33,766 bases of DNA from Azospirillaceae bacterium (GTDB lineage Bacteria; Pseudomonadota; Alphaproteobacteria; Azospirillales; Azospirillaceae). The translations under genes were made by a program, and so were the position numbers. Shown here piece after piece: positions 2,758 to 23,675 of this stretch. A model generated the notes under the pieces. That model had not been told where the DNA came from, did no database searches, and saw only the letters and a list, made by a program, of their open reading frames with translations. The first letter of the stretch is position 1. The number at the start of each line of letters is the position of its first letter. The stretch spans positions 1 to 33,766 of the forward strand of contig JARLIO010000057.1 in assembly GCA_031291675.1 (NCBI GenBank). Reading direction: 5' to 3'.

Positions 2758-3080
2758 AGCGCGGCGACATCGTGACCGTGGCCGCACAAGGCGACTATGG
2801 CAAACCGCGCCCTGCTGTCGTTATTCAGTCAGATACACTTAACGCGGCGGATAGCGTTCTTGTCGCGCTGTTCACCAGTACGATTCAGGACGCGCCGCTT
2901 TATAGGCTCGTTGTGGAGCCAATTGAAATGAATGGTCTCAAAGTAAGATCGCAGGTTATGGTGGACAAAATTCTTGCATACCCGCGCGTAAAATGTGGCC
3001 TTGTGATCGGGCGACTTTCTGACAGAGAGATGACCGCTTTGAATAACTTGCTCTCGGTGATGATTGGGATTGCCGATTGA
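2754..3080 (+). CDS. mazF: PemK/MazF-family toxin, endoribonuclease, 108 aa
   Basis: The sequence opens MKRGDIVTVAAQGDYGKPRPAVVIQSD, the standard N-terminus of MazF/PemK/CcdB-fold toxins, with the conserved KPRPAVVIQ strand and a downstream SQVMVDKILAYPR segment containing the conserved Ser/Thr-x-Val region. Family members cleave mRNA at specific short sequences and stop growth. Its length is normal. It overlaps the upstream antitoxin by four bases and ends 38 bp before repA, so the three genes may be read together. On a plasmid this arrangement promotes maintenance. No defect is visible, so the toxin should be active if expressed without its partner. Confidence 0.88.
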   Translation: MKRGDIVTVAAQGDYGKPRPAVVIQSDTLNAADSVLVALFTSTIQDAPLYRLVVEPIEMNGLKVRSQVMVDKILAYPRVKCGLVIGRLSDREMTALNNLLSVMIGIAD

Positions 3081-6485: not shown

Positions 6486-8729
6486 ATGGACATCAAAATG
6501 ACGAGATCCGATTCCCTGACATCACCCGCGGAACTACATTCCTATTGCCCGATGAACGGTATTTTATTGGGATCTATCGCCATAAACACGATGGATGAGA
6601 TCGACGAGACGATCGTCGTGTCCCACAAGGCGTACAGCGGATGGATTGACACGCCACTGAAAGAGCGTGTTGCCCGGGTCGATAACGTTCTGCGCGTTCT
6701 GAAGGGATCCGCCAAAGAACTGGCGAACCGAATTACAAGCGAGATGGGCAAGCCCATCCACGAAGCTCATCAGGAAGTCGAGGATGGGTTCGAGTGCATC
6801 CGCTGGTATCTGGACCAGGCGCCTCGCGCGTTGCAGCCCACACACGACCGGGCCGACGCCCACGAAGTTCATGAGATATGTTACGTCCCCTATGGCGTCA
6901 CGGCCGTGATCGTGCCGTGGAACTTCCCCTTCCTCAATGTCGTCTGGCCGGTGTTTCCAAATCTGCTTGCGGGAAATACCGTCATCCTGAAACACTCGGA
7001 AAAGACTCCGCTGTTTGCGCAATACCTGCATGCGCTGATCGCGCCTGAGCTTCCCGAGGGCGTGTTCGCGCTGGTCACCGGCGCGAGGGACACCGGTAGA
7101 CATCTCTGCCAGGGCGACATTGATCAAATCTGCTTTACCGGGAGCACCCGGGCCGGGCTTGAGATCCAGCGAAGTGTTCTCGATCGAGCAGAGCGTGCCG
7201 GTCGCGCCATTCCCGTTCATAGCGAGCTCGGCGGCTCCGCCGCCGGCATTGTGCTGGAGGACGTGAACGTCACCACCGTCGCCGAGGCGATCTTCCGCGC
7301 CCGCTTTGAAAATGCCGGGCAGGTCTGCGACGGCCTCAAGCGACTGCTGGTACAGCGTCGCGTTTACCCGCGCCTGCTTGAAGCCCTGACCCAACTGCTC
7401 GAACGTCGGCCGCTCGGGGATCCGACCGCGATCTCAACCTTTATCGGACCGCTGGTCGACGCCCAGCAGCGTTCAGAGATCGAGGCCCAGGTCGCAGACG
7501 CCCGCGCGCTCGGCGCGACCATCCGAGCCGTCGGCGCCTGCCCGGCCACCGGTTGTTTCTATCCACCCACACTGATCCTTGATATCGACCGCCGGATGCG
7601 GGTGTGGCGCGAAGAGGTCTTCGGACCTGTGCTCCCCATCATCGTGTTCGACAGCCTTGACGAAGCCGTGGCGCTCGCCAATGACACGGTCTACGGCCTG
7701 GGCGGTTATGTCTACACCGCTGATGGCGAACATATCCGCTGGCTTCGCCGCAGACTTCGCACCGGGATGGTCGCTGTCAGCGGCAGTCATTACCTGCGTC
7801 CCTCGGTTCCTTTCACAAGCGGCGGCTACGGCCTGTCGGGGAACGGCACGTACAACGGCCCGGATGTGTTTCGTAAATTCTGTCGAATGCAGATCACATC
7901 CTATCCGCAAGCCCTGTTTGCCGACCGTGCCACACCGGTGATTCCCCCCGCTCCGCCCCGACGATCACAGCGCAAACGCGCACGCGCCCAGGACACGCTC
8001 ACCGAGGCCGGCGTCTTGCGTCGCCACGGTGATGGCACCGTCGAGATTCGCCCCTACGAACTCCCGGTTCGCCTTGGCGATCAGGTCCACAACCTTCGCA
8101 TTTCGTTGTGGGCATTCGATGAGGGCACTGTGGAGGAGGACGCCTACTTCGTCGCCAGCTATGGTCAGGAACGCTTCAGCAAAGGCGCGCCGCTGGTCCG
8201 GATCCAGTCGCTCTGCCCCCATGGTCACTATTTTCATTCGACCCACTGTGATTGTGATTCACAGCGCGATCTCGCGATGCAGCTCCTCGTCAAGGACCCC
8301 ATCGGCGGATTGCTGGTGATGGCCGCGAGCGAGAAACATGCGGGCCGGGGTATCGGTCAGGTCATGATCGCGGGTCTCTACGCCTATGGCTATGCCACCG
8401 GCCGTGACGTGGTCACGGAATCCTTCAACGACCTCCAGTTTAATCGTGACGAAAGAGACTTCACGCCGGCGCTCGAGGTTCTGCGGCGTATGGGTTTGCG
8501 CTCAATCCGGCTGCTCACCAACAATCCCGACAAGGCACGCCATGTCGGCCAGGCGCCGGGGCTCGAACTTGAGGAAGTTGTCCCGCTGATTGGCGAGGTC
8601 ACGGCTGAATCCCTCAAGGAACGCCTGTTGCTGGCCCGGGCCGGACACTATTACGACCGGGCGCTGTTGGATCGGGCGGCCATCGACGCCGTCGCCCGCG
8701 GCGGCAGGCATCCCCTTGAAGGCTGGTGA
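6486..8729 (+). CDS. Aldehyde dehydrogenase-GTP cyclohydrolase II fusion protein, 747 aa
   Basis: Two complete enzymes are joined. Residues about 20-480 form an NAD(P)-dependent aldehyde dehydrogenase: PWNFP with Asn146, Lys169, the GS nucleotide turn FTGST, Glu247 in HSELGG and the catalytic Cys281 in GQVCDG. A Pro/Arg-rich linker (about 483-503) follows. Residues about 505-747 are a GTP cyclohydrolase II: zinc ligands Cys577, Cys588 and Cys590 (spacing as in RibA), AGRGIG, Tyr632, DERDF with Arg657, and RLLTNNPDK. The family hydrolyses GTP to a 2,5-diamino-6-ribosylamino-pyrimidinone phosphate with loss of formate and pyrophosphate. One deviation is that RibA's EGR GTP-binding triplet reads AGR. 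No other riboflavin gene is nearby and the NRPS starts 32 bp downstream, so the role is probably in secondary metabolism. The start is uncertain (ATG 6486 or 6498); neither has a strong ribosome binding site. Confidence 0.88.
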   Translation: MDIKMTRSDSLTSPAELHSYCPMNGILLGSIAINTMDEIDETIVVSHKAYSGWIDTPLKERVARVDNVLRVLKGSAKELANRITSEMGKPIHEAHQEVEDGFECIRWYLDQAPRALQPTHDRADAHEVHEICYVPYGVTAVIVPWNFPFLNVVWPVFPNLLAGNTVILKHSEKTPLFAQYLHALIAPELPEGVFALVTGARDTGRHLCQGDIDQICFTGSTRAGLEIQRSVLDRAERAGRAIPVHSELGGSAAGIVLEDVNVTTVAEAIFRARFENAGQVCDGLKRLLVQRRVYPRLLEALTQLLERRPLGDPTAISTFIGPLVDAQQRSEIEAQVADARALGATIRAVGACPATGCFYPPTLILDIDRRMRVWREEVFGPVLPIIVFDSLDEAVALANDTVYGLGGYVYTADGEHIRWLRRRLRTGMVAVSGSHYLRPSVPFTSGGYGLSGNGTYNGPDVFRKFCRMQITSYPQALFADRATPVIPPAPPRRSQRKRARAQDTLTEAGVLRRHGDGTVEIRPYELPVRLGDQVHNLRISLWAFDEGTVEEDAYFVASYGQERFSKGAPLVRIQSLCPHGHYFHSTHCDCDSQRDLAMQLLVKDPIGGLLVMAASEKHAGRGIGQVMIAGLYAYGYATGRDVVTESFNDLQFNRDERDFTPALEVLRRMGLRSIRLLTNNPDKARHVGQAPGLELEEVVPLIGEVTAESLKERLLLARAGHYYDRALLDRAAIDAVARGGRHPLEGW

Positions 8730-8761: not shown

Positions 8762-11700
8762 ATGGATCCGCTCGACGATGGTCATCCGGGGACCGGCACG
8801 GACGCCTGGAGAATCGATAAATCCATCCTGGTTCGCTGTGCCGGCGATACGGCCTCGTGGCAGACCGGGCTGGTGGGTGGACTGTGTGCCCTGTGCGCCC
8901 GGATCTTCCAGACCCACGACGTTCTCGTCTCGATCGGATCACGGCCGCCGACCCTGCATAGCCTGTCTCCGCAATCCACCGTCCCGGATCTTGCATCGGC
9001 AGTGGCGGGATCGGTGGCGCAATCCGCGGCTTCTCCCCTTGAGGTCTGGGTCACGCCTGCGGGCGGAGGCGCTTTCGCCGACAGCCAAAGGATTGCGCTC
9101 AGAGCCCACGCGACCGATCAGGCGATCGATGTCGGTCTTGAGGCCGACGGCGTCGTCGAAGCGCCGATCCTGGCGCGTTCGCTCGCGTCGCTCCTCAGCG
9201 CGGCCGGCGAAACGCCCGAGCGCAAAGTCGACGGGTTACCCGTGCTCCACGGCGAGGATCGCCAACGCCTGCTGGGGCTCTGGAACGCGACGACATGGCG
9301 CCTGGGCGCCCTCCAACCGCTTCATCGCAGTTTCGAATTGCAGGTGCGCCGGACGCCGGCGGCGACGGCGCTCGTCGACGGACCGCACCGTTGGACATAT
9401 GCACAGCTCAATGGCGCGGCAAACCGGCTTGCCACCCGCTTGCGAGCCGAGGGTGTCGACGTCGGCACGACCGTGGGTCTCTGCGTGCCCCGGTCCGCGG
9501 CGATGGTCGTGGGCATGCTCGGCGTTCTCAAGAGTGGCGGTGCCTTTGTCCCCTTGGACATGAACCATCCCCTCGCGCGCCTCCAGCGAATGTGCGCCCG
9601 GGCCCAGCCCCGGGTCCTGCTGTTTTCGCGCACCCGGGACGGGCTCGCCCTGGCACTTGGGCACCCCGGCCCCCGGCTCGGCATCGAGACCGTGATCGAG
9701 TCACCGGGCGACGAGTCCGATTTGCCGGGCGGGGCGGCCGTGGAAGATCCCGCCTATGTGATCTTCACCTCGGGTTCCACCGGCGACCCCAAAGGGGTCG
9801 TCGGTCTTCATCGCGGGATGAGCAACCGGATCCAGTGGGTCCTCGAACACGTCCCGCTGCAACCCGATGCGATCTGCTGTCAAAAGGCGGCGCTCGGTTT
9901 CATCGACTGTATCGGCGAGGTGCTGAGCCCGCTCTTTTGTGGCCGGCCGCTGTTCATCGTCCCCGAGCACGAGGCTGTCGATCCGAAGGCCCTGGTCGAC
10001 TTCCTGGCGCAGCACCGCATCACCCGCGTCACAACGGTTCCCACGATGCTGCGGATGGTGCTCACCGCGGTCGGTGATCTGCGCATCCGGCTGCCGTTTC
10101 TCCAAACCTGGATCTGCAGCGGCGAGGAACTGCCGGCCGACCTCGTCGGACGCTTTTTCGCGTGCTGCGATGCCGAGCTCTATAACTTCTACGGCCCTTC
10201 GGAAGCGTCGATCGAAGTCACGACATGGCGCTGTGACCGCGGGTCCTGTCCCTCACCGGTACCCATCGGCTATCCCATCGGCAATACGCAGCTCTATGTG
10301 CTGGACATCAGGATGCAGCCGGTGGTCCCGGGTGTCGTGGGCGAACTTTACATCGGCGGCATCGGTCTGGCCCGGGGCTATCTGGGGGATCCTCAACGCA
10401 CGGCGATCAGTTTCGTGCGAAACCCCTTCTCCGACGATCCAGAGGCGCGGCTGTACCGCACCGGCGATCTCGCGCGACACCGCGCGAATGGCGTGCTCGA
10501 ATTCATCGGTCGCCTCGGACGGGACGTCAAGGTCCGCGGCAATCGGGTCGCGCTGGGAGAGGTCGAGAGCGCGATCGCATCGCTTCCCGGGGTCAACGAG
10601 GCGGCCGTCGTCGCCTGGCCCGATCCCCATGGCGCCATCCGGCTGTTGGCCTACATTGTTCCCGCCGGACCCGACGCGCCAGCGCTCGAGGCGCTCCGCG
10701 GGCAATTGGCCACGATCCTGCCCGCTTATATGATTCCGTCCTTTTTCGTGTCCCTGGACAATCTGCCGAGAACCACCTCTGGCAAAATCGACCGCTCTCA
10801 TCTGCCGGATGCCAGCCCCACACGGATGCTCCGTGAGCGCAATACCCGTCCCTTGTCCACCGAGACCGAACATCAGATCGCGCGGTGCTTTGCCGAGGCG
10901 CTCGGCATTCCCGTGTCCAGCGTCGACGATGATTTCCTGAAGTTGGGTGGCGACTCGTTGCAAGCCACCTTGCTGCTGTCACAACTCGCCGCGCAACAGA
11001 GTTTCGAGCTCTCCCTGCGTGATTTCTTCACCCAACCCACGGTCGAAGGGGTCGCCCGGCACCTTGATGCCCAGCGGCGACGGGACGGCTCGACGGCTGT
11101 CCCCCTCATCACGCCCCGACCGGACACGCCGGACGATAGGGTGCCACTGTGTCATGCGCAGGAGCGCCTCTGGTTCCTTGCCCAACTCGACGGCGGCAGC
11201 GGTTACGTGGTCTCGACGGCGCTTCACCTCGAAGGTCCCCTCCTGATCGAGGCCCTCGAGAACGCCCTCGACGCGCTCTGGCAGCGGCACGCCGCCCTGC
11301 GAGCGGTCTTTCCAGAGCGCGACGGCCGGCCCGTTTGCCTCATCCCGGACCCGACGCACCCCAACGCGACGCGGCTGATGCTCGATCAGGTCGATCTCAG
11401 TCACATCGATCTCGATGGCACGCCCGGCGAAACCGCCTTGGCGGACGCCCGCATCGACGAGCACAGGCGCCGCACCCAGCGCGAGACTCCCTTCGATCTT
11501 GCCGCAGGTCCGCTGGTTCGGGCAACATTGTACATCTGCGGCCCTACCGACCATACGCTGGTCCTGACGATCCACCACATCGTCTGCGACGGGGTCAGTA
11601 TCGACATCCTGGTCCGCGAATTGACGGCACTCTACGAGGCCCAGGTCATCGGCTCGGAGTTCGTCCTTCCCGTGCAGGCGCAGAGCTATGCCAATCACGC

Positions 11701-14700
11701 CCGCTGGGAGCGCCAGCAGGAAGAGGGTCCGCGCGCGCGCATCCTGGCCGCGGTCTGGGGCCGGCGGATGGCCGGCGCGCCGCCGGTGCTCGCGCTGCCC
11801 CTCGACCATCCGAGACCGTCGACAGGCTCGGAACGCGGCGCCTTCCACCGGTTTCGTCTCGGTGCCGACCTGGTGGACGCCTTGCACGACTTTGCCCGGC
11901 AGGCGGGTGCGAGCCTGTTCATGGTCACCCATGCGGCGTTCGTCGCGCTTCTGACGCGCCTGTCGGGTCAGAGCGATCTGTGCATCGGGGTGCCGGCGGC
12001 AAACCGAACCCGCGCCGAGGTCTCCGGTCTCGTCGGATTGTTCGTCAACACCGTGGTGCTGCGGACACGGGTCTCGGGCGGGGAAAGCTTCCGGGCGCTG
12101 GTGACACAGGTCCGCGAAGACGGCCTCGAAGCCTTCGATCATCAGGATTACCCCTTCGAACGGCTGGTTCATCAATTGAAACCGGAACGAAACCTGAGCC
12201 ACACACCGCTGGTCCAGGTGACTTTCGCACTTGAACGTCCCCTGCCCGCGCAGCGCGCCGCCGGTATCGAGATCCACGCCCGGGACCTGGATTCGGGGAT
12301 CGCCCTGTTCGACCTCAGCCTGACCCTCGCACCGACGGACCACGACATCGACGGGGTGGCCGTCTACAGCACGGCGCTGTTCGAACCGGAAACGATCGCG
12401 CGCTGGATGGAACACTATCGACGGCTGCTCGAAGCCGCTCTACGGCAGCCGGACACACCAATCACGCGTCTCCCCTTGCTGGGCGCCAGCGAGCAACGCC
12501 TGTTACGCGCCTTCGGAACCGGCGAGATCCTGGGTCCGCCGCGCTCCGGGGCCAGCGTCCTCGCCCATTTTGAAGCTTGCGTCCGGCGGACCCCTGACGC
12601 CGTCGCCGTGGTCGTGGGTGAGACGCGGCTCAGCTACAGCCGCCTCGACACCCTGGCCACTCAGCTCGCCACGCGCCTGTGCGCCCGCGGGGTCGGCCCC
12701 GAAATGCTGGTCGCGATTTGCGGCCGGCGCTCGGCGGACCTCGTGATCGCGGTCCTGGCGGTCATGAAGGCCGGTGGCGCCTGGTTGCCCCTGGATCCCG
12801 GCTATCCGACCGCGCGCCTGCGCTTCATGCTCCAGGACAGCGAAGCCACGCTGCTTCTGGCACATCGCGAAGCCGTTCCCCGCCTCATCGGCGACAGCGC
12901 GCTCCCCTGGTTGACGCTGGAACCGGACGACGCGGACAACCACAGGACGGGCGATGCTCGGCGATCGCAGCCCGAGCCGGAACAACTGGCTTATCTGATC
13001 TATACCTCCGGTTCGACCGGCAAGCCAAAAGGCGTGATGATCACGCACGGCGCACTCGAAAGCGCCTGGCGGGCCTGGGATCGGGCCTATTGCCTGACCG
13101 GGCGATGCCACAGCCATTTGCAGACGGCCAGCTTCTCCTTCGACGTGTTCGTCGGAGACCTGGTCAGAGCGCTGTGCTCCGGTGCGAAGCTCGTCATGGC
13201 GGATCGGGAAACGCTGCTGGATCCGCCGGCCCTGCTCGATTTGCTCGACGCCGAACAAATCGACAGCGCCGACCTGTCGCCTGTGGTCATGCGCCTGCTC
13301 GCCGAACATCTGACGCGCGTTGGCCGCGACCTGTCCGCCTTGAAACTGCTGGTGCTCGGAACCGACGCCTGGAACGTCGATGCCCATCGACATTGGCAAA
13401 CGCTGCTCGGACCCACGTGCCGGTTCCTCAACGCCTATGGCGTGACCGAAGCCACCGTCGCGAGCACCTATTATGATTTCCGACAGAGCCCCCTGCCCGC
13501 GGCGGGTCCGGTACCGATCGGTATCCCGCTGCCGGGCGAGACCATCCGCATCGTCGATCGACACCGGATGCCGGTTCCGATCGGCGTAACCGGCGAAATC
13601 TGCATCGGTGGCGCCGGTGTGGCGCGCGGCTATCATCATCGTCCGATGCTCGATGCCGAACGCTTCTTCGTGGACGCCGACGGACGGCGGCACTACCGCA
13701 CGGGCGATCTGGGACGGTGGCGCGCCGACGGCATCATCGAATTCCTCGGTCGCGCGGACGCACAGGTCAAGATCCGCGGCTTTCGTGTCGAGCCCGGCGA
13801 AGTCGAGGGGGTCATTGCCGCGCACCCGGCCGTTCGCGACGTTGCGGTGGTCGCCCTCCCGGATCCGCTCGGCGGACACAGTTTGCGCGCCGCCGTGGTC
13901 ATCCGCGATCCCGCGACCCTCGGCATTCCGGAGCTGCGGGCTTTTGTGGCGCAACACCTGCCGGAGCATATGATTCCGTCCTCGCTACAGATGCTCGAGG
14001 CCCTTCCCACCTCACCCAACGGCAAGATCGATCGGCAGGCAATCGCGGCGCTCGAGGATCGTGGGATCGGCATGGTGCGGACGAATACGTCCCCGCGAAC
14101 GCCTGAGGAGGGGGCTATTGCGGAGATCCTCGCCCGGGTGCTCGGGCGCGAACGGATCGGGGCCGATGAGAACTTCTTCGCTCTGGGGGGACACTCCCTG
14201 CTCGCGACCCAAGCCGTGTCGCAGATCCGCGACACGCTCGGCGTGAGCCTGAAGGTTCGGAGCTTCTTCGAGGCCCCCTCGGCCGCAGGTCTCGCCCAAC
14301 AGGTCCGCAGGCTCCGCGACCAGGCGTCGGGAAATCCGTTCAAGGTCGGTGCCCCGCCGGTTCGCCGTCCAGCGCGGACGGCGTTCGAGGAACCCTGTTC
14401 GGCAGCCCAAACCCGACTGCTTTTCCTCCATTATCTGGGCGGCGGCGGGCGCGGCAACCTGGCCTATGACATCCCGGCATTGTTTCATCTGCGCGGAACG
14501 CTCGACCGGCCCGCGCTCGAACGCAGCCTCACCGGCATCGTCGGGCGCCACGAGATCCTTCGCACCACATTCATCCCGCCGGACGGCACCACATTGAACG
14601 CAAGGCAGCGGATTCACCCGTCTCTGCCGGTGCCGGTCACCGTGGTGCGATGCCCCCGGCACACCGCGGACGGGGCCGACACGCTCGCGACGGACATCGC

Positions 14701-17700
14701 ATCGGTCATCGGGCAACCCTTCGACCTCGAAACGGGTCCCTTGATCCGAGCCGTTCTGTTCCAACGCGATGATGACGACCACCTGTTGCTTCTGCACATG
14801 CATCATCTGGTCTCCGATGCCTGGTCGGTCGGCGTGTTTGTCCGCGAACTTCGTACGCTCTATAGCGATTTCCACGCGGGCCGTCCGGCCACGCTGCCGC
14901 CGCTGCGCTGGCAATACCGTGATTACGCGGCCTGGCAGCGTGCCCTCCTCGACACAGATCTCGGCACGACGCAACTCGACACCTGGCGAAAACAACTGGC
15001 CGGCGCCCCCGCGCGGCTCGAACTACCCGGCGATCGCCCGCGCCCGGCGGTGAAGTCCTATCGCGGCGGCGTCCTGCACCATACCCTGGATGCGCGCCTT
15101 GTCGCCGGCCTCGGTGCGCTCGGGCAGCGCCTTCACGCCAGCCTCCACATGCTCCTGCTCGCCGCGCTCGGTGTCCTGCTCTATCGCCGAACCGGCCAAC
15201 CGGACCTGTGCATCGGCTCGCCGATCGCCAATCGGGGCGACGCCGCGTTCGAGGAACTGATCGGTTTTTTCGTCAACACCCTGGTCCTGCGCATCCGCCT
15301 TGAAGGTGACCCGAGCTTCACCGAACTGGTTTCGCGCGTCCGCGAAACCGCGCTTGACGCCTACGACGCCGCCAACATCCCCTTCGATCGCCTTGTCGAT
15401 GAACTTCACCCCAAGCGGAGCCTGAGCCACTCCCCGCTGTTTCAGATCGTGCTCGCCTTGCAGAACGTGCCGACCGAAGACGTCACGCTCGAAGACCTGA
15501 CCGTCGAGACGCTCGACCTGCATAATGGAACCGCGAAGTTCGACCTGGTGATCATCGCGGAACATCGGGGTCCGGAACTGCGGCTGGAGGTCGAATACAG
15601 CGACGATCTCTTCGACCGGACGACGGTCGAACGGATGATCGACGGCTACGAGACGATTCTGCACGGCGCTGTTTCCGCTCCCGAGACCCCGGTCTCACGC
15701 CTCCCGGTCCTGTCCCGGACCGAACGCGCGCTTCTGGAGACGCAGTGGACACAGACGGAACACGATCTCGGCGAACCACGCTGCCTTCACCATGTGTTCG
15801 AGGCCCAGGCGGCGCGGTCCCCGGCGGCCATCGCCGTGATCGGACCCGCGGGTTTCCACCCCGCCACCATGACCTGGCGCTCGCTCGATCGTTGCGCGAA
15901 TGCCCTCGCCTATGAGTTGCAGGATCTCGGCGTCGGACCCGGTGCGACGGTCGGCATCTTCTGCGATCGAAGCGTCGAGCAGATCGTCGCAATCCTGGGC
16001 ACGCTCAAGGCCGGCGGCGCCTATGTTCCCCTCGACCCGGGCCATCCGGCGGCGCGACTGCGGGACATGGCCGCCGATGCCCGTCTCCGCGTCGTGCTGA
16101 CCCACGGCGTCACGCCGTGTCCCGACCTGGGCGTCCCGCGCCACGACCTGTCCGGTGCCACGACGCGCGAAGCGCCCCAGGCGCCCCGTTGCGGCGTCAC
16201 GCCCCAGGATCTGATTTACGTGACCTATACCTCGGGCTCAACGGGTCGCCCCAAAGGTATCGCCATGCGCCACGCCGCGGTCTGGAATCTGATCGCGTGG
16301 CATCAAGATGAGACGCCGCTGGCGGCACCGACGACGATCCAGTACGCACCGCTCGGCTTCGACGTCTCGTTTCAGGAAATCTTCGCGACCTTCATCGACG
16401 GCGGAACCCTGGTTCTGGTCGACGAGGACGATCGACGCGATCCCTTCCGCCTCTGGGAGGTCATCAGGCGCACGGCGACGCAGCGCCTGTTTCTTCCCAC
16501 CGCCGCCCTCAAGCCGTTCACGTCGGCGGCAGCCGCGCTGCCGGCCCTGCCATCCGGTTTACGCGAAATCTGGGTCGGCGGCGAACAGATGCTGATCGAT
16601 GCCGACATCCGCGCTTTGTTCGAGCGTCTCCCGTCCTGTCGCCTGATCAACTATTACGGGCCCTCGGAATGCCATGCGGTGACCTGGGCCCCGCAACCAA
16701 GCGACGTCCGGCAATGGCGGGACGCCCCCCATGTCGGACGACCGATTGCCAACGTCAGGATCCACATCCTGGATCACTTCGGCCAGCGCGTGCCCATCGG
16801 CGTCGAAGGCGAGCTGTGCATTACCGGCCCGTGCGTCGCCGAAGGCTACCTCGACCGCCCGGACCAGACCGCCGCAAGCTTCGTTCCTGACCCGTTTTTC
16901 GGCGACGACGCCATCGCGATCGGCGTTTCGCCGCCCCGCATGTACAAAACCGGCGACCGGGCCCGCTACGATGCGGACGGCAACATCCATTTGCTGTGCC
17001 GTCAGGACGGCCAGACCAAGATCCGGGGGTTTCGCATCGAAACCGGCGAGATCGAGACCGTACTCATGCGCCATTCCGACATCGAGAGGGCCGCGGTGGC
17101 CGTCGACCGGCCCGGCGACGAGAATGCCCGCCTGCTGGCGTGGGTCGTTGCCCGTCCGGGCGTCCCTGTCGACAGCCGCGGCATCATCACGTATGCACAC
17201 GACGTCCTGCCGGATTACATGGTCCCGTCTTCCGTGGTCGTCCTCGACCAATTTCCGATGACGGCGAATGGCAAGATCGATCGCGGCCGGCTGAGCGCGC
17301 TCGCCGCCACCGCCGCCACCGCCGCCACCCCGGATAACGGCCCGAACGGCCGCGAGCTTCCCCGCAATGCCCGCGAAGCTCAGATCGCCGCGGCTTTCGC
17401 CGCGCTTCTGGGACATTCGCAGGTGGGTCGGGACGAGAATTTCTTCGATCTCGGGGGCAACTCGATCCTGGCCATGAGCCTCGTCGCCCGCCTGCGCGCC
17501 GCCACAGGGCTTCCCTTGTCGGTCGCCGCGTTGATCCAACATGCAACACCGGCGAAAATCGCAAACCATCTCCATTCGCACGGCACCGCGACCCCCGTCC
17601 GCGCGTCACCTCTGGTGCCGTTACGGACCGACCCGCGCTCCCGTCCGCCGTTGTTTTGCGTGCATCCGGCAGGCGGCAATGTCGTCTGCTACGAACCGCT

Positions 17701-18484
17701 CAGCCGTGCGCTGGCCTATCCCTTCTACGGGTTCCAATCGACCGGTCTCAACGCCGGCGAAGTCCCGCTTCGCGCTGTCGAAGAGATGGCAAGCGGCTAC
17801 ATCGCGGCGATCCGCGCCCGCGCGCTGCCGGGCACGCCGTTTGGTACGCCCGCCGGCCCGCTCCATCTCGCCGGGTGGTCGATGGGCGGGATCGTGGCCT
17901 TTGAGATGGCGTACCAGCTCGTCCTCGCCGGAGGTGACGTCGCGACGCTGATCCTGCTCGACACCGATGCTCCGGTCCGCCATGGCGAGGCCCCGGGGCC
18001 AATGTCCGCGCTACCGATGAACCTCAAGCTCGCGAGAGCCCTGGCCGAAGAACACCATGTCGTGTTCGGGCGGACCATCGATCTGGACGAGGCCGCGTTG
18101 GGGACCATGACGGAGATCGAACGCCTCAACAACATCCTCTCGGCAGCGGATGAGGCCGGGGCGATCCCCCGCGACCTCGGTACTGAAAACGTCCGGCACC
18201 TGTTCCATGTGTTTTCGCGCAATCTTGAAGCCATGCTCGCCTATCAAGCGAAGATCTACCCCGGCCCCGTGACCGTGATCTCGGCCCGGGATCGGAAAGG
18301 CCCCGGGGCCTCGCAGCCGCGTGACCGTGGGTGGCGGACCCTCGTTTCCGGTGCGCTGACGGTCCACGAGGTTCCCGGGGACCACTACACCTTCCTCCAA
18401 CCGGAGCACGTCGCCACCGTCGCTCAGCTCATCGACAGCGCATTGTCCGGCCCGGTCCGCATGAATGCCGGGTTGAGACCGTAA
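8762..18484 (+). CDS. Three-module non-ribosomal peptide synthetase, 3240 aa
   Basis: The start is ATG 8762, preceded by GGAGG at 8750-8754; an upstream in-frame GTG at 8726 overlaps the preceding stop but has no such site. Order by residue: about 1-180 resembles only the C-terminal half of a condensation domain; A1 186-690; T1 near 731 (LGGDSL); C 793-1230 with intact HHIVCDG; A2 1266-1765; T2 near 1812 (LGGHSL); C 1878-2310 with HHLVSDA (Gly of HHxxxDG is Ala); A3 2341-2850; T3 near 2901 (LGGNSI); thioesterase 2960-3235 with GWSMGG and a C-terminal GDHYTF His. There are no epimerisation or in-line methylation domains. It would assemble a tripeptide and release it by hydrolysis or cyclisation. 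Pocket residues suggest a non-alpha-amino acid for A1, a basic residue for A2 and a proline-like residue for A3. The 3' end overlaps the convergent oxygenase by 61 bp. Confidence 0.95.
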   Translation: MDPLDDGHPGTGTDAWRIDKSILVRCAGDTASWQTGLVGGLCALCARIFQTHDVLVSIGSRPPTLHSLSPQSTVPDLASAVAGSVAQSAASPLEVWVTPAGGGAFADSQRIALRAHATDQAIDVGLEADGVVEAPILARSLASLLSAAGETPERKVDGLPVLHGEDRQRLLGLWNATTWRLGALQPLHRSFELQVRRTPAATALVDGPHRWTYAQLNGAANRLATRLRAEGVDVGTTVGLCVPRSAAMVVGMLGVLKSGGAFVPLDMNHPLARLQRMCARAQPRVLLFSRTRDGLALALGHPGPRLGIETVIESPGDESDLPGGAAVEDPAYVIFTSGSTGDPKGVVGLHRGMSNRIQWVLEHVPLQPDAICCQKAALGFIDCIGEVLSPLFCGRPLFIVPEHEAVDPKALVDFLAQHRITRVTTVPTMLRMVLTAVGDLRIRLPFLQTWICSGEELPADLVGRFFACCDAELYNFYGPSEASIEVTTWRCDRGSCPSPVPIGYPIGNTQLYVLDIRMQPVVPGVVGELYIGGIGLARGYLGDPQRTAISFVRNPFSDDPEARLYRTGDLARHRANGVLEFIGRLGRDVKVRGNRVALGEVESAIASLPGVNEAAVVAWPDPHGAIRLLAYIVPAGPDAPALEALRGQLATILPAYMIPSFFVSLDNLPRTTSGKIDRSHLPDASPTRMLRERNTRPLSTETEHQIARCFAEALGIPVSSVDDDFLKLGGDSLQATLLLSQLAAQQSFELSLRDFFTQPTVEGVARHLDAQRRRDGSTAVPLITPRPDTPDDRVPLCHAQERLWFLAQLDGGSGYVVSTALHLEGPLLIEALENALDALWQRHAALRAVFPERDGRPVCLIPDPTHPNATRLMLDQVDLSHIDLDGTPGETALADARIDEHRRRTQRETPFDLAAGPLVRATLYICGPTDHTLVLTIHHIVCDGVSIDILVRELTALYEAQVIGSEFVLPVQAQSYANHARWERQQEEGPRARILAAVWGRRMAGAPPVLALPLDHPRPSTGSERGAFHRFRLGADLVDALHDFARQAGASLFMVTHAAFVALLTRLSGQSDLCIGVPAANRTRAEVSGLVGLFVNTVVLRTRVSGGESFRALVTQVREDGLEAFDHQDYPFERLVHQLKPERNLSHTPLVQVTFALERPLPAQRAAGIEIHARDLDSGIALFDLSLTLAPTDHDIDGVAVYSTALFEPETIARWMEHYRRLLEAALRQPDTPITRLPLLGASEQRLLRAFGTGEILGPPRSGASVLAHFEACVRRTPDAVAVVVGETRLSYSRLDTLATQLATRLCARGVGPEMLVAICGRRSADLVIAVLAVMKAGGAWLPLDPGYPTARLRFMLQDSEATLLLAHREAVPRLIGDSALPWLTLEPDDADNHRTGDARRSQPEPEQLAYLIYTSGSTGKPKGVMITHGALESAWRAWDRAYCLTGRCHSHLQTASFSFDVFVGDLVRALCSGAKLVMADRETLLDPPALLDLLDAEQIDSADLSPVVMRLLAEHLTRVGRDLSALKLLVLGTDAWNVDAHRHWQTLLGPTCRFLNAYGVTEATVASTYYDFRQSPLPAAGPVPIGIPLPGETIRIVDRHRMPVPIGVTGEICIGGAGVARGYHHRPMLDAERFFVDADGRRHYRTGDLGRWRADGIIEFLGRADAQVKIRGFRVEPGEVEGVIAAHPAVRDVAVVALPDPLGGHSLRAAVVIRDPATLGIPELRAFVAQHLPEHMIPSSLQMLEALPTSPNGKIDRQAIAALEDRGIGMVRTNTSPRTPEEGAIAEILARVLGRERIGADENFFALGGHSLLATQAVSQIRDTLGVSLKVRSFFEAPSAAGLAQQVRRLRDQASGNPFKVGAPPVRRPARTAFEEPCSAAQTRLLFLHYLGGGGRGNLAYDIPALFHLRGTLDRPALERSLTGIVGRHEILRTTFIPPDGTTLNARQRIHPSLPVPVTVVRCPRHTADGADTLATDIASVIGQPFDLETGPLIRAVLFQRDDDDHLLLLHMHHLVSDAWSVGVFVRELRTLYSDFHAGRPATLPPLRWQYRDYAAWQRALLDTDLGTTQLDTWRKQLAGAPARLELPGDRPRPAVKSYRGGVLHHTLDARLVAGLGALGQRLHASLHMLLLAALGVLLYRRTGQPDLCIGSPIANRGDAAFEELIGFFVNTLVLRIRLEGDPSFTELVSRVRETALDAYDAANIPFDRLVDELHPKRSLSHSPLFQIVLALQNVPTEDVTLEDLTVETLDLHNGTAKFDLVIIAEHRGPELRLEVEYSDDLFDRTTVERMIDGYETILHGAVSAPETPVSRLPVLSRTERALLETQWTQTEHDLGEPRCLHHVFEAQAARSPAAIAVIGPAGFHPATMTWRSLDRCANALAYELQDLGVGPGATVGIFCDRSVEQIVAILGTLKAGGAYVPLDPGHPAARLRDMAADARLRVVLTHGVTPCPDLGVPRHDLSGATTREAPQAPRCGVTPQDLIYVTYTSGSTGRPKGIAMRHAAVWNLIAWHQDETPLAAPTTIQYAPLGFDVSFQEIFATFIDGGTLVLVDEDDRRDPFRLWEVIRRTATQRLFLPTAALKPFTSAAAALPALPSGLREIWVGGEQMLIDADIRALFERLPSCRLINYYGPSECHAVTWAPQPSDVRQWRDAPHVGRPIANVRIHILDHFGQRVPIGVEGELCITGPCVAEGYLDRPDQTAASFVPDPFFGDDAIAIGVSPPRMYKTGDRARYDADGNIHLLCRQDGQTKIRGFRIETGEIETVLMRHSDIERAAVAVDRPGDENARLLAWVVARPGVPVDSRGIITYAHDVLPDYMVPSSVVVLDQFPMTANGKIDRGRLSALAATAATAATPDNGPNGRELPRNAREAQIAAAFAALLGHSQVGRDENFFDLGGNSILAMSLVARLRAATGLPLSVAALIQHATPAKIANHLHSHGTATPVRASPLVPLRTDPRSRPPLFCVHPAGGNVVCYEPLSRALAYPFYGFQSTGLNAGEVPLRAVEEMASGYIAAIRARALPGTPFGTPAGPLHLAGWSMGGIVAFEMAYQLVLAGGDVATLILLDTDAPVRHGEAPGPMSALPMNLKLARALAEEHHVVFGRTIDLDEAALGTMTEIERLNNILSAADEAGAIPRDLGTENVRHLFHVFSRNLEAMLAYQAKIYPGPVTVISARDRKGPGASQPRDRGWRTLVSGALTVHEVPGDHYTFLQPEHVATVAQLIDSALSGPVRMNAGLRP

Positions 18485-19182
18485 GAGTCCTGGCCCTGGA
18501 GCATGACGATTTCCGGTTGGTAACGACGCCACATCGCAGGATCGAAGGCGACGTCGGGCGTCGTATACCGGATCCCACAGCCGATCCGCGCCCGGGACGT
18601 GCGATTGGGTCCGGTGCGATGAACCGTATACGCATCGAACAGGCACACCTGGCCGGCGGTCATATCGACCGCGACCTCTTCGGTCCCGGTGATCGCATCA
18701 GGAAATTCCGTGGTGAATTCGCTCCGTGGATCGTCGAGGGTCACATGGGATCGCAAATCCGTGCGACGACCCGGCAGAAAATGAAGGGCACCGTTGTCAC
18801 GATCGACGTCACCCAGCGCCACCCAGGCCGTGATGGTTTTGACGGGCTTCATGGGCCAATATGCCCCGTCCTGGTGCCAGGGAACGTAGGTGACATCACC
18901 GGCCTGCTTGTACCAAAACAGCATCGACCAGATCATGATGTCGGGCGCGTCCAGGAGGTCCTGGACCAAATCGACAAGGCGCGGATTGCGCATCATCTCG
19001 GCACACCACTGATGCCTGGTGTGCCAATTCGGCAGGTCCCCCGCAATGTGGCGGGTCTGCTCCTCGGTCTGGCCAACGGCCTCAAAAAACCGCCGGCGCA
19101 ATGTCACGCTCTCCGCGCGGCTGAAAACATCGATGGGTTGAGTATACCCGACCCTCCGGTAGTGCTCGACATGGGCCCGCAT
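18424..19182 (-). CDS. PhyH-family Fe(II)/2-oxoglutarate dioxygenase, 252 aa
   Basis: This belongs to the phytanoyl-CoA dioxygenase-like family. The iron-binding triad is visible as His103 and Asp105 in PWHQDGAYW and the distal His188 in TVHRTGPN; Arg197 or Arg199 (TSRARIG) should bind 2-oxoglutarate. The Asp is present, so it is a hydroxylase or desaturase type rather than a halogenase. The start is ATG 19182, with a strong GGAGG-rich site six bases or so upstream, in preference to an upstream ATG at 19296 that lacks one. Its 3' end runs 61 bp into the NRPS gene on the opposite strand. It follows the ATP-grasp gene on the same strand (89 bp gap), probably in one transcript. Substrate is unknown; a free or carrier-bound amino acid is likely from context. 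Confidence 0.85.
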   Translation of the reverse strand: MRAHVEHYRRVGYTQPIDVFSRAESVTLRRRFFEAVGQTEEQTRHIAGDLPNWHTRHQWCAEMMRNPRLVDLVQDLLDAPDIMIWSMLFWYKQAGDVTYVPWHQDGAYWPMKPVKTITAWVALGDVDRDNGALHFLPGRRTDLRSHVTLDDPRSEFTTEFPDAITGTEEVAVDMTAGQVCLFDAYTVHRTGPNRTSRARIGCGIRYTTPDVAFDPAMWRRYQPEIVMLQGQDSYGLNPAFMRTGPDNALSMS

Positions 19183-19271: not shown

Positions 19272-20678
19272 CTAAGACACCCCCGCAGCCGCGCAATCAT
19301 AGTCAGCCCCGACGCCGTTCCCCGGGGCGCCGTTCCCCTTGGCGACATTCCCCTGACAGCGATCGCGGATCAGCCGGATCCAGGCGTGGTTCACACTGCC
19401 GATCCGGGCGTCGAGCGACTCCCGGGACAGATCTCCCGGGCCGGATCCGGCGCGGGAGACGGTCCGGAGACGATGATTGAGATACCAGGCGCCACCGGGG
19501 TTGACGTCCATCTCGATGACATAAACCTGCCAACCGGTCCCCTGCCGCCGCACGATGACGTCGAGCCCCAAAATATCCGGCGCGGACGGCCCGGTCCGCA
19601 CCTCCGATGGCGCGTCACGGGTGATCGCCGCGCACATCGCCTGATAGGCGCGTGCCGACACCGCCGATACCTGCGCCCGAACGTGCGTGAGGGTCGCACG
19701 GTCCCATGCCAGAAGTTGCGCGATTTCCTCGAGCAGAAGGGCTTCGGCGCCCAGGGTCAGGTTGATCGCGCCGCCTTCCTCTCCCATACAGGCGATCATG
19801 TCCGGAACCACGGCCCGGCCCCGGCGATCCCGGGTGACGAACACCCTCAGGATCCAATCCAGCCGACGACACCCCGCCATGACCAGCGGCGGTACGATGC
19901 GTTCCTGGATCAGGACGTCGCTGCCACCGCAGAGGAACGCCGACAACACCGCCTCCGTCTCGGCGAGGTTCCGCGCGCTGAAAAAATGAACATCCTCGCC
20001 ACACCCGCCCTGGTTGGGCTTGAGGACGCCGTGGTCGCATCCCTGTTCGGCAAGAAAGGCTGCGAGAACACCTTGGGGCGGCTTCAGGGCCACGGAATCC
20101 CGATCGAGTGTCACAACGCTGCCCATGGTCAGGCGGCGGGCGTCCATACGGGGGTTGTGGCCGTGGTTGACCACCGTTTTCGCGCCGCCCGCCAGCGTCC
20201 GTGTCAGAATCAAAGAGAGATCCCGGGGTACGAGAAGCCCGGCACGGCGCAGCACGTCCGAGGTCAAGTCCTTCCTGAAAGGATAGTCCCGCACCCAGGG
20301 CAGAACGGTAACCGGAATATTCAGCAATTTTCCCTGCAATGGTTCTTCGTTGTAATTGACGAGGTAGTCGATCCGAACGCCGATCGGAAATTCCACGAAA
20401 AACAGTTCGCCGTCCCGAAAAACCAGCCCCGAATCGACCACAATTCCTTTCGCGTCGACGCGGAACCGATTTCGATCAATGAGAACGAAATAGAGATCGC
20501 GATGCTGCGACCCGTCCTCGATCAGCGCCAAATCATCATCGGAATCGTAACCTAAAATACCCACGACCTTCGTGTCAGGCCGGAGGCGGTTGTCAATCCC
20601 ACCGCATCGGGGGGCGGAATAACCGCACTGGGCGGCAATACGACAAATCGACACGCGAAAATTGTCAGACGCCTCCAT
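19272..20678 (-). CDS. ATP-grasp family ligase, 468 aa
   Basis: The C-terminal two thirds carry ATP-grasp landmarks: Lys220 in GVLKPNQGGCGED, the adenine-contact region IQERIVPP with Glu259, LRVFVTRD near 277-284, and the metal-binding strand YVIEMDVNPGG (Glu389, Asn393). ATP-grasp enzymes join a carboxylate, through an acyl phosphate, to an amine or thiol. The N-terminal 130 residues match nothing I know. ATG 20678 has AGGGAG six bases upstream. In this cluster it could add an amino acid to the peptide or form an amide or dipeptide precursor; that is inference. The gene is transcribed divergently from the 21005 gene across a 326-bp promoter region. Confidence 0.8.
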   Translation of the reverse strand: MEASDNFRVSICRIAAQCGYSAPRCGGIDNRLRPDTKVVGILGYDSDDDLALIEDGSQHRDLYFVLIDRNRFRVDAKGIVVDSGLVFRDGELFFVEFPIGVRIDYLVNYNEEPLQGKLLNIPVTVLPWVRDYPFRKDLTSDVLRRAGLLVPRDLSLILTRTLAGGAKTVVNHGHNPRMDARRLTMGSVVTLDRDSVALKPPQGVLAAFLAEQGCDHGVLKPNQGGCGEDVHFFSARNLAETEAVLSAFLCGGSDVLIQERIVPPLVMAGCRRLDWILRVFVTRDRRGRAVVPDMIACMGEEGGAINLTLGAEALLLEEIAQLLAWDRATLTHVRAQVSAVSARAYQAMCAAITRDAPSEVRTGPSAPDILGLDVIVRRQGTGWQVYVIEMDVNPGGAWYLNHRLRTVSRAGSGPGDLSRESLDARIGSVNHAWIRLIRDRCQGNVAKGNGAPGNGVGADYDCAAAGVS

Positions 20679-21004: not shown

Positions 21005-21790
21005 ATGCCGTCGACATCCCAAGCCCGCTGGTCCGCCCAGGGTATTTCCGAATTCACGCAGGACACTCTTCGAGCATTACTCGACTCACAGATCCCGGCG
21101 ATCCGGTTCCGCGGATTTGCCACCCAGGCGGAATGTGAGGCTTTGGTCACGGCGATTGATGAAGACGCGTTCGCCTATAGTCCACAGCAATCACCACCGA
21201 TCGGGCGCATCGGGATCACGCAATACGGCCATCGCACAGCCCCCGAGGCCTATTTCGCCGGCGTCCCCGACGCCCACCATGCTGTACAACAGCTTTTCTC
21301 CCGCGCCTTTGATCCCGTCGCCCGGGTGATTGCGGCGCTGCGCGACGTGTGGCCGGCTGCCGTCGAAGTCGCTGACAGCGAAAGAGGCCGATATCACGCC
21401 GGTCTGATTCGCCTGATCCATGACTATGCGGGTCTGCACTTCGATTTTGTGCCGATCGAGGGGCGGGGTTGGAGCATTGATGACATCACGGCGCAAATAT
21501 CCTGGAATCTCCACCTCAGCGCACCCGGCAGCGGCGGCGCCTGTGTCGTCTATGATCGACGCTGCGAGGTCGAACACGAAGCGGTCAAGGCAGACCCCGA
21601 CGCGTTGCTTGCCGATCCGGAACTGGTCTCGGACCGGCCCTTTGTCACGCTCGACAGCATTGTCGGCGACATTGTCCTTTTCAATACCCGGTCCTATCAC
21701 GAGATTCTGCCCTGTCGCGGCGGACGCCGCATCACCGTCTCCTCGTTCATCGGACGTAAACCTGACGGGAGCCTTGTCCTGTGGTCATAA
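21005..21790 (+). CDS. 2-oxoglutarate/Fe(II) oxygenase, 261 aa
   Basis: The core of a prolyl-hydroxylase-like double-stranded beta-helix is visible: His145 and Asp147 in LHFDFVP, the distal His232 in TRSYHEI, and Arg241 or Arg242 in GGRRITVSSFIG for 2-oxoglutarate. The N-terminal 130 residues are helical and variable, as in this superfamily. The start at 21005 has AAGGGG about nine bases upstream. Its stop overlaps the start of the aminotransferase by 10 bp, so the genes form one operon with 22980. It likely hydroxylates an amino acid building block or the peptide; the substrate cannot be deduced. It is distinct in sequence from the two PhyH-type genes of the cluster. Confidence 0.78.
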   Translation: MPSTSQARWSAQGISEFTQDTLRALLDSQIPAIRFRGFATQAECEALVTAIDEDAFAYSPQQSPPIGRIGITQYGHRTAPEAYFAGVPDAHHAVQQLFSRAFDPVARVIAALRDVWPAAVEVADSERGRYHAGLIRLIHDYAGLHFDFVPIEGRGWSIDDITAQISWNLHLSAPGSGGACVVYDRRCEVEHEAVKADPDALLADPELVSDRPFVTLDSIVGDIVLFNTRSYHEILPCRGGRRITVSSFIGRKPDGSLVLWS

Positions 21791-22983
21791 GGGTCAACAG
21801 CCGGGTCGACCGGCTCACCGACTATCCGTTCAGTCGGTTGCGGCAACTCCTGGACGGGCTGTCCCCGCCCGCCGACATCGAACCGCTGATCGTTTCGATC
21901 GGCGAGCCGAGACAAAGCCCCGGGCAGATCGCCCGATCTGTCGAAGCGCACCACGCCGACTGGTGGCGCTATCCCTCTCTCGACGGGACCGAGCGTTTTC
22001 GCCAGGCGGTCGAGGGCTGGTGCCGGAGACGCTTTGGGATCACAGCCGCGTTCCTTGCCACGCCGCGCAGCATCCTGCCGGTGGCGGGGACGCGCGAGGC
22101 CTTGTTTCTGTTCGCCCAGACGGTTGTCCCCGAGCCGACCTGGGAACGCGGCCTCCAGCGACCGCTCGTCGTGGTCCCCAATCCTTACTATGCGGGCTAT
22201 CCCGGGGCGGCGATCATGGCAGGGGCCGAGCCGCTGTTTCTCGGTGGAGCCGGACGCCGGAATTCTCTCCCCGATCTCACCAGCCTGTCGTCCGAGACAC
22301 TCGATCGCGTCGTCCTCGCCTATATCTGTGCGCCCAGCAACCCGATCGGCGAAGCCGCGACACTCGAGTATCTGATCGAGACGATCCGCATTGCCCGGCG
22401 ACACGACATCGTGTTGGCGATCGACGAATGCGCCGTCGATCTCTATCACGGGGCACCGGTGCCCGGCAGCTTGCAGGCCTGTGAAGCGATCGGCGACGGC
22501 CTGGACAATGTGGTGGTCTTTCAGTCCCTGTCGAAGCGATCGAGCGCCGCCGGACTGCGTTCGGGCGCCGTCATCGGAGACCCGGGGTTACTGCAGCGTT
22601 TCTGGGAGGTCCGCTGTTTTGGCGGCGCGACACTGCCCGTCCCGGTATTGGCCGCATCGACCGACCTGTGGCACGACGATACCCACGTCGCCGAAACCCG
22701 TGCCGAGATCGGCGCGCGTTTCGATGTCGCCGAACGACTCCTGTCCGGGCGCTTCGACTTTTATCGACCCGACGCCGGCTTTTTCTTATGGCTCAATGTC
22801 GGCGATGGCGAAGCCGCGGCGCGTCGGCTGTGGCAAAACGCCGGCCTCCAGGTCATGCCCGGTGCCTATCTCGCCCGCGACACCGGTCACGGCAATCCAT
22901 GCCAGGCGTTCATCCGAATCGCGCTGGTCCACGAACTCCCGGTCATTGAAAGCGCCCTTCGGCGTTTGACGGAGGCGTTATGA
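21781..22983 (+). CDS. PLP-dependent aminotransferase, DapC-like class I/II, 400 aa
   Basis: The N-terminus DRLTDYPFSRLRQLLDGL followed by IVSIGEP is the hallmark of proteobacterial succinyldiaminopimelate aminotransferase (DapC)-like enzymes. The PLP lysine is Lys252 in SLSKRSSAAGLRSG, with Asp215 (AIDE) and Asn187 (SNPIG, where the usual NPTG Thr is Ile) as cofactor contacts. Such enzymes transfer an amino group between glutamate and a long-chain keto acid or semialdehyde. Here it probably makes or remodels a non-proteinogenic amino acid for the NRPS rather than lysine, since no other lysine gene is present. The start is GTG 21781 with GGGAG upstream. It overlaps both neighbours (10 bp and 4 bp), indicating tight coupling. 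Confidence 0.85.
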   Translation: MVIRVNSRVDRLTDYPFSRLRQLLDGLSPPADIEPLIVSIGEPRQSPGQIARSVEAHHADWWRYPSLDGTERFRQAVEGWCRRRFGITAAFLATPRSILPVAGTREALFLFAQTVVPEPTWERGLQRPLVVVPNPYYAGYPGAAIMAGAEPLFLGGAGRRNSLPDLTSLSSETLDRVVLAYICAPSNPIGEAATLEYLIETIRIARRHDIVLAIDECAVDLYHGAPVPGSLQACEAIGDGLDNVVVFQSLSKRSSAAGLRSGAVIGDPGLLQRFWEVRCFGGATLPVPVLAASTDLWHDDTHVAETRAEIGARFDVAERLLSGRFDFYRPDAGFFLWLNVGDGEAAARRLWQNAGLQVMPGAYLARDTGHGNPCQAFIRIALVHELPVIESALRRLTEAL

Positions 22984-23675
22984 ACCTTGAACCCGACGGC
23001 TATCGCATCATCGGGATCCCCGCCGCCGATGACACACTGCTCGCCAGTTTCGATGACATGCCGCTGGACCAATATTGTGGTGGCCGCCAGCGTTTTCATC
23101 GCTTCTCACAATACCGGCTGCGGTTCCGCGACGGACATTGGCAGCCGGAACGTCTTCCGCATCGACCGCTGCTTCAATCGCACGTCTACAACAGCAAGGC
23201 CGGGAACGTCATGCGGGAAATCCCGCCGCTCCTGGTCGATCCGGCGACCTGGGTCGACGCCGCCCTTCAGTCCGGTGGGCTCGACACGACCCGGGACTGG
23301 CACCTTGACATCAATCAGTACCGGGTCATCACCACGCCCGACATCACGGGGATCACCGTCCCCGAGGGCGCCCATCAGGACGGCCACCGTTACGTGATCA
23401 TCTTCGTCTTTCGTCGCCATGCGATCACCGGTGCCACACTCCGCTTGCTGCCCGTGGCCGGCGGTCCGGCGTTTTTCGAGACGGTCATCGAGGCCGGCCA
23501 GGCCATCATTCTCGACGATACCCGCATGCTGCACGACGCATCGCCGATCGTGCCAGTCGGCGACTACGGCTATCGGGACTATTTCGGCACGGCGCTCAAT
23601 CCCTGGGAGGACCGACGCTACGGGGCGGAATTCGAAGCCAGGGTCCTGGCCGCCGCAGCCCGGCACGGCCAATGA
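22980..23675 (+). CDS. 2OG-Fe dioxygenase of the amino-acid hydroxylase (isoleucine dioxygenase-like) family, 231 aa
   Basis: The sequence PEGAHQDGHRYV supplies His132 and Asp134, DDTRMLHDASPI supplies His185, and YGYRDYFGTAL carries the 2-oxoglutarate Arg199. This layout matches the family typified by bacterial L-isoleucine 4-hydroxylase, whose members hydroxylate free aliphatic L-amino acids. It therefore most likely prepares a hydroxylated amino acid for one of the NRPS modules; the exact substrate is unknown. Length is close to the usual 230-260 residues. ATG 22980 overlaps the aminotransferase stop by 4 bp (ATGA). The gene converges on the methyltransferase 64 bp away. Confidence 0.82.
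   Translation: MNLEPDGYRIIGIPAADDTLLASFDDMPLDQYCGGRQRFHRFSQYRLRFRDGHWQPERLPHRPLLQSHVYNSKAGNVMREIPPLLVDPATWVDAALQSGGLDTTRDWHLDINQYRVITTPDITGITVPEGAHQDGHRYVIIFVFRRHAITGATLRLLPVAGGPAFFETVIEAGQAIILDDTRMLHDASPIVPVGDYGYRDYFGTALNPWEDRRYGAEFEARVLAAAARHGQ

Follow-up and report, generated by a model that had tools for sequence, protein, structure and literature searches.

An aldehyde dehydrogenase–GTP cyclohydrolase II-like fusion in a nonribosomal peptide synthetase gene cluster of an Azospirillaceae bacterium

The fusion protein and its relatives

What does an aldehyde dehydrogenase (ALDH) joined to a relative of GTP cyclohydrolase II (GCH II) do at the head of a nonribosomal peptide synthetase (NRPS) gene cluster? 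This question is raised by a 33,766 nt stretch of DNA from an Azospirillaceae bacterium (assembly GCA_031291675.1, contig JARLIO010000057.1, positions 1 to 33,766 of the forward strand; the whole stretch is called the window here), in which a single open reading frame of 747 codons encodes both enzymes. Both Pfam domains of the predicted protein score above their curated cut-offs (for PF00925, residues 550–700, 74.1 bits with a cut-off of 23.3; Table 1), which together with a homologue of identical architecture confirms the fusion proposed in a first-pass annotation of this DNA. The residues listed there were found where it had placed them, with the catalytic Asn146, Glu247 and Cys281 all present in the ALDH half, and Cys577, Cys588, Cys590, Tyr632 and Arg657 in the cyclohydrolase half, the choice between Tyr632 and Tyr634 being dependent on the alignment.

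The homologue is encoded on a contig of an uncultured gammaproteobacterial metagenome-assembled genome (locus L004), has 747 residues, shares both domains and their order with the window protein, and is followed by an NRPS of approximately 3,230 residues. Because a protein of this length, with the linker in frame, is present in a second genome, the fusion is not a frameshift or assembly artefact. A merger of neighbouring genes by an assembly or sequencing error, for which we found nothing in favour, is thereby refuted, and its probability is negligible.

Relatives of the fusion were sought in the genome contigs of 84,980 species by means of six exact query peptides, so that more distant members would be missed. 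The scan gave 92 relatives, and the 80 that were kept included one other fusion (L004) and one free-standing cyclohydrolase half, a 264-residue protein of Endozoicomonas arenosclerae (L005:9223-10017); the remaining 78 matched the ALDH half at 28–34% identity, with one of these (L074) extending to residue 564. Within the family of the window's organism, 28 of 82 genomes had a match at E 1e-60, and except for the full-length match in the window's own genome these covered little beyond the ALDH half, none passing residue 531. In the searches of its class (289 genomes) and its phylum (398 genomes) only the window's own genome matched. The solo cyclohydrolase was detected in 1/37 genomes of the Endozoicomonas family, E. 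arenosclerae itself, and in the class of L004 there were matches in 76/369 genomes at E 1e-15, with only that of L004's own genome above 90 bits. By these comparisons the fusion is rare, yet a conserved member of its gene cluster. It was not seen to be common in ordinary riboflavin operons, which would have undermined the first-pass annotation, and the one other fusion also precedes an NRPS gene, in a cluster shared with the window. Literature searches around GCH II did not turn up a publication on an ALDH–GCH II fusion, which is not to claim that none is in print.

The ALDH half has the full-length domain and the catalytic Asn, Glu and Cys of the ALDH superfamily (succinate-semialdehyde dehydrogenase, aminobutyraldehyde dehydrogenase or 3B4W type), from which the window protein differs by its extra fused C-terminal domain. 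Assignment to a named ALDH subfamily was not obtained, as none of the best 25 of 46 matched NCBIfam models reached its cut-off (top match 289 of 521 bits). Comparison of the window and L004 proteins showed identity at 161/238 positions (67.6%) in the cyclohydrolase half and at 258/455 positions (56.7%) in the ALDH half; the cyclohydrolase half is kept better, and therefore the domain does not appear to be decaying and is under constraint. A predicted model of the C-terminal half was of low confidence (mean pLDDT 63, with residues 88–101 and 127–169 below 50) and was used for the fold alone, with the GCH II structures 2BZ0 and 4I14 as the only two fold matches with E < 0.001. These RibA structures were also its best sequence relatives in the PDB. 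The model of the complete fusion (mean pLDDT 41) was too poor and was set aside.

Retained and altered motifs of the cyclohydrolase domain

The zinc motif CX2GX7CXC given for GCH II (PMC10366380) is kept as C577-PH-G-HYFHSTH-C588-D-C590, and Arg657 aligns with Arg128 of E. coli, the nucleophile of GCH II (PMC10366380), both in the alignment to 2BZ0 and other PDB relatives and in a MAFFT alignment. The residues aligned with Asp126-Glu-Arg128 (DER) and Lys154 of E. coli RibA (2BZ0) are likewise kept in the window domain, and the three known members of this group (window, L004 and L005) do not differ in the zinc motif, DER or TNNPxK. Tyr105, Asp126 and Lys154 all have functional roles in E. coli GCH II. 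HMMER aligns Tyr105 with Tyr632, and MAFFT, which sets two additional residues behind GRGIG, aligns it with Tyr634; each of these tyrosines is present in all three members.

Other positions differ from GCH II in all three members. The ordinary HSxCxTGD is replaced by QSLCPHGH, the ordinary EGR by AGR (with A619 where EGR has Glu), and 3–4 residues are inserted before GRGIG; the window domain further differs from GCH II by N- and C-terminal extensions. Within 23 comparison rows of GCH II, EGR is present in all 23 and HSxCxTG[DE] in 22, the exception (L135) being a row that was not matched by the search pattern used. These rows consist of 19 loci (L122–L140) from the search of the L004 class, which are biased to similar sequences, and of L001, L095, L096 and L101. 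In a midpoint-rooted tree the three members form one clade (support 100/100) whose inner branch measures 4.09 changes per column and which lies outside the 23 rows; three further PF00925 loci (L002, L102 and L103) were missed by the phmmer search and are absent from the tree, and contain no frame with the CDC motif. The first-pass annotation had noted one changed GTP-contact residue, EGR to AGR, as a hint of a changed substrate or product. The substitution itself stands, but it is one of several, and because several active-site motifs are altered in all three known members, a changed substrate or product appears more likely than that annotation had held.

From these comparisons we consider the cyclohydrolase half to be a divergent subfamily of the GCH II type. 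It probably works like GCH II without cleanly belonging there, having the family score, the zinc motif and the nucleophile, but neither two of the motifs nor the placement in the tree, and differing further in its fusion to an ALDH and in lacking detected riboflavin genes beside it. The kept tyrosine also bears on the alternative of a formylated, GCH III-like product, since work in Streptomyces reportedly takes this residue to argue for formate release; by that rule it argues against a formyl product. No residue rule for such a product was found in passages of PMC9478397.

The altered substrate-pocket motifs may also be read as loss of activity, with the cyclohydrolase part catalytically idle and used by the ALDH or the NRPS for docking or regulation. 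Plant RIBA proteins that lose one activity yet keep the protein, as described in PMC3509567, offer a precedent, and the three loci without a CDC-motif frame point the same way. The zinc ligands and the arginine are nevertheless invariant in the three members, the domain is better kept than the ALDH half, and it exists as a free-standing copy in L005, all of which make an idle domain improbable.

Domains of GCH II type are known as the C-terminal half of other proteins, in RibBA (DHBP synthase–GCH II) and in the PF12471–GCH II-like proteins, which we take to be the uracil-catabolism enzyme URC1, but there the N-terminal partner is a different one. Kinship with URC1 was considered and set aside, PF12471 being absent from the fusion protein. 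A phmmer search with the window half gave no match in 11 PF12471 loci; because the same search missed the three PF00925 loci mentioned above, this missing similarity is weak evidence. The toxoflavin/azapteridine pathways use a ToxB-type GCH II homologue in specialised metabolism; these pathways are not known to include an NRPS or ALDH fusion, and the scan of frames beside the fusion detected none of the genes of a toxoflavin- or riboflavin-like route. Separate ALDH and GCH II-type genes lie close together on a Rhodococcus opacus plasmid (L095:8001-10793), and this GCH II has the ordinary motifs.

The NRPS and its gene cluster

Table 1. Positions in the window of the fusion gene, its domains and the genes of the cluster, with the evidence for each
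Feature	Position	Strand	Evidence
ALDH–GCH II-like fusion protein, 747 aa	6486..8729	+	Frame; Pfam; full-length homologue L004:9977-12220 (58%)
Aldehyde dehydrogenase domain, residues 16-469	6531..7892	+	PF00171, 386 bits; Asn146, Lys169, Glu247, Cys281; PDB alignment
GCH II-like zinc cyclohydrolase domain, residues 510-747	8013..8726	+	PF00925, 74 bits; 2BZ0 alignment; fold match to 2BZ0 and 4I14; Cys577/588/590, Gln593, Tyr632/Tyr634, Asp655, Arg657, Lys683
Three-module NRPS, A-T-C-A-T-C-A-T-TE (A, adenylation; T, carrier; C, condensation; TE, thioesterase)	8762..18484	+	Pfam; homologue start; 45% to L004 homologue
PhyH-type Fe/2-oxoglutarate oxygenase (a)	18424..19182	-	PF05721; 50% to L107:1127-1813; HxD kept
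ATP-grasp-like protein	19272..20678	-	41% to L004:4254-5630
WelO5-family Fe/2-oxoglutarate oxygenase	21005..21790	+	PF22814, 53.7 bits; HFD motif; none on L004 contig
Pyridoxal phosphate-dependent aminotransferase, DapC-like	21781..22983	+	PF00155; DapC model 363.7 bits, cut-off 474.6; 71% to L004 homologue
PF10014 Fe/2-oxoglutarate amino-acid hydroxylase family	22980..23675	+	PDB relatives 9dq0, 8jms; 65% to L004 homologue
Methyltransferase (Methyltransf_24)	23740..24576	-	55% to L004 homologue
PhyH-type Fe/2-oxoglutarate oxygenase (b)	24573..25487	-	63% to L004 homologue

The NRPS contains three PF00501, two PF00668, three PF00550 and one PF00975 domain. Its distance of 32 bases from the fusion stop, as first annotated, is true for the ATG at 8762, which is the start matching the homologue; the frame itself opens with a GTG at 8726, in a 4-base overlap with the fusion stop. 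With positions assigned by the adenylation code, the pocket of the first adenylation domain reads I-D-G-T-I-S-F-I-E in both the window and L004 NRPSs, and has no Asp at the first code position, which is usually an Asp that binds the alpha-amine of the substrate. This pocket presumably resembles those of beta-amino-acid-type adenylation domains, an idea that gained no support from comparison of the domain with the PDB, where linear gramicidin synthetase and other NRPSs were the best matches and beta-aminoacyl-ACP (acyl carrier protein) synthetases came last among the best 60 of 75. The second and third domains read DVGDLLAVA and DVQLWGYAV. Read by eye, 26/27 code positions agree between the two NRPSs; an automatic reading of 24/27 includes a misread, in which SSKGED instead of LVLGTD was taken for the homologue's second domain, and its probability was not used. 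The agreement at 26/27 positions between genomes suggests that the two clusters make the same or a very similar product.

A tblastn search of the L004 contig with 14 window proteins found counterparts for eight, at 41–71% identity (Table 1), and these cover 8/9 genes from the fusion to PhyH oxygenase b. The six without a counterpart on that contig were an upstream PfkB kinase, the WelO5-family gene and four genes downstream of the cluster. The aminotransferase, PF10014 hydroxylase, fusion and NRPS genes of L004 follow each other in this order and in one direction, and the NRPS gene is followed by two further genes, first one for an NTPase_I-T protein (PF01931, 54 bits) and then a PhyH gene. 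The NTPase_I-T gene (L107:476-1078; CAJXZM010000013.1, 36,975-37,577) overlaps the NRPS stop by eight bases with its start, has weak NCBIfam matches to inosine/xanthosine triphosphatases, and is the sole PF01931 match in the L004 genome. Upstream of the L004 cluster are very long frames, L106:2043-5681 (1,212 aa) and L106:7036-15498, which continues into L004 (at least 2,821 aa).

Several of the neighbours need a comment on start or function. The frame of PhyH oxygenase a opens at 19296, and the homologue start matches the Met at 19182. The Pfam match of the ATP-grasp-like protein is under the cut-off in the window and 0.1 bit over it in the homologue. A role as halogenases was considered for the WelO5-like and PhyH proteins and rejected: because HxD is kept, the WelO5-like and PhyH proteins are likely to be of hydroxylase type, the WelO5-like one probably a hydroxylase from a halogenase family. 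Cyclisation of the enduracididine type by the aminotransferase was left as an idea, as the protein reached 105 bits with the model for GntC, a protein treated in PMC10367076, far under the cut-off of 415, and 364 with that for DapC.

No other riboflavin-type gene was detected by Pfam in 24 window frames (drawn from 90 frames of at least 100 aa, three of the 24 being probably not genes), in eight further L004 frames and in three L107 frames, which agrees with the earlier annotation, and the window's genome carries two other PF00925 genes on other contigs. As far as gene content tells, the fusion belongs to a conserved NRPS cluster and not to a riboflavin operon. This bears on the explanation that the domain continues to form the usual GCH II product and boosts the supply of flavin or pyrimidine for the cluster, as could be expected of a PF00925 member with the zinc motif and the Arg nucleophile. 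Two Agrobacterium plasmids (H2 and H3) do have an ALDH gene near a RibBA or RibA gene and a flavin reductase gene; one of the two also has a lumazine synthase gene. In the window, however, no flavin-dependent enzyme was detected in the 24 scanned frames either, the genome is provided with PF00925 genes elsewhere, and an ordinary copy is not expected to show such motif changes, making riboflavin supply by the fusion unlikely.

The cluster has apparently moved between hosts. Upstream of it the window encodes a RepA_C plasmid replication protein (3119-4231) and a PemK/MazF-type toxin (2754-3080), and because of these genes we suggest that the window contig is plasmid-borne. The sugar-kinase region of the window resembles Ensifer and Paracoccus plasmids, and the nearest relatives of the window aminotransferase are on Azospirillum plasmids (47%). 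PhyH oxygenase b has a close relative (54.5%) beside a methyltransferase gene on a plasmid of Streptomyces sp. NBC_00984 (L143:11236-12921), among clustered free-standing genes for adenylation, carrier and acyl-CoA dehydrogenase proteins, and another (58.5%) on a Streptomyces mirabilis plasmid (L146).

A proposed role for the fusion

We tentatively propose, as an account that is credible while still falling short of probable, that the zinc-dependent ring-opening hydrolase and the aldehyde oxidation together form a dedicated two-step supply (or trimming) enzyme, with a purine nucleotide as the likeliest substrate and an acid that feeds the first NRPS module. The C-terminal domain would bind zinc via Cys577, Cys588 and Cys590 and hydrolyse a C-N bond in a nitrogen-containing ring, the likeliest being the imidazole of a purine nucleotide, for instance GTP. 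Arg657 and the conserved Tyr (632 or 634) would act in their GCH II roles, and the altered loop (QSLCPHGH, KHAGRGIG) would accept a changed substrate or yield a changed product. The ALDH domain would then oxidise a pathway aldehyde to the carboxylate, passing the hydride to NAD(P)+ through Cys281. The resulting acid, which would have no normal alpha-amino group where one is usually found, may be activated by the first adenylation domain and extended by two further residues to a tripeptide-type product, for which the DapC-like aminotransferase and the Fe/2-oxoglutarate hydroxylases would shape the other building blocks, and which the methyltransferase and the ATP-grasp-like protein may finish. 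In this scheme we infer the substrate, the order of the steps and the link to the first NRPS module.

A purine substrate is favoured by the kept GCH II residues, by the NTPase_I-T neighbour in L004 and by salvage genes near L005, and none of these decides the question. The L005 solo gene has, within 8 kb, two 5′-nucleotidase genes, a nucleoside-phosphorylase-family gene (PNP_UDP_1) and a Metalloenzyme-superfamily gene. Several observations weigh against the proposed two-step enzyme. Because the changed motifs surround the substrate pocket, GTP may not be bound at all. In the scanned frames neither a deaminase nor a reductase of the known GTP-derived routes was detected, and the window's own genome has no PF01931 match, so the NTPase gene is not essential. 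The code of the first adenylation domain could just as well stand for a beta-amino acid that has nothing to do with the fusion. What ties the two domains together is their fusion, and in the solo form in L005 the cyclohydrolase does without the ALDH; the genes closest to this solo gene are Spond_N and thioredoxin-type genes rather than nucleotide genes. Since no relative of PhyH oxygenase b was found in E. arenosclerae at E 1e-10, the solo gene there stands without at least this part of the cluster.

The main rival is that the domain no longer acts on nucleotides at all and opens or hydrolyses a different ring or C-N bond, such as that of a cyclic guanidine, a hydroxylated cyclic amino acid or the assembled peptide, with the ALDH oxidising the aldehyde that is freed. 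We hold this to be doubtful, yet a real possibility. It would account for the loss in all three members of two motifs that are near-universal in the comparison rows, for the insertion before GRGIG and for the long inner branch of about 4 changes per column, and it fits the amino-acid enzymes next to the fusion (the PF10014 hydroxylase and the DapC-like aminotransferase). A plain amino-acid substrate leaves unexplained why the counterparts of Arg128, Asp126, Lys154 and Tyr105 are kept, and the NTPase_I-T gene beside the L004 NRPS points to nucleotides.

The C-terminal domain may, with a likelihood that we would put about level with that of the main rival, found a new cyclohydrolase family that opens the ring of a purine nucleotide or nucleotide-like compound and, together with the ALDH, gives an acid that is loaded directly on the NRPS, so that a nucleotide would be turned straight into the starter unit of a peptide. 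Such a family could be distant enough from GCH II to count as an enzyme class of its own.

If the proposed role is correct, a nucleotide-opening enzyme would join the toolbox that feeds NRPS assembly lines, and the genomic tag QSLCPHGHYFHS...KHAGRGIG would help to find a new class of compounds. The cluster is small, is present in two different genomes and is experimentally tractable. Should the substrate be something other than GTP, the rebuilt substrate loop would still make this zinc cyclohydrolase useful for testing how function changes within the GCH II fold.

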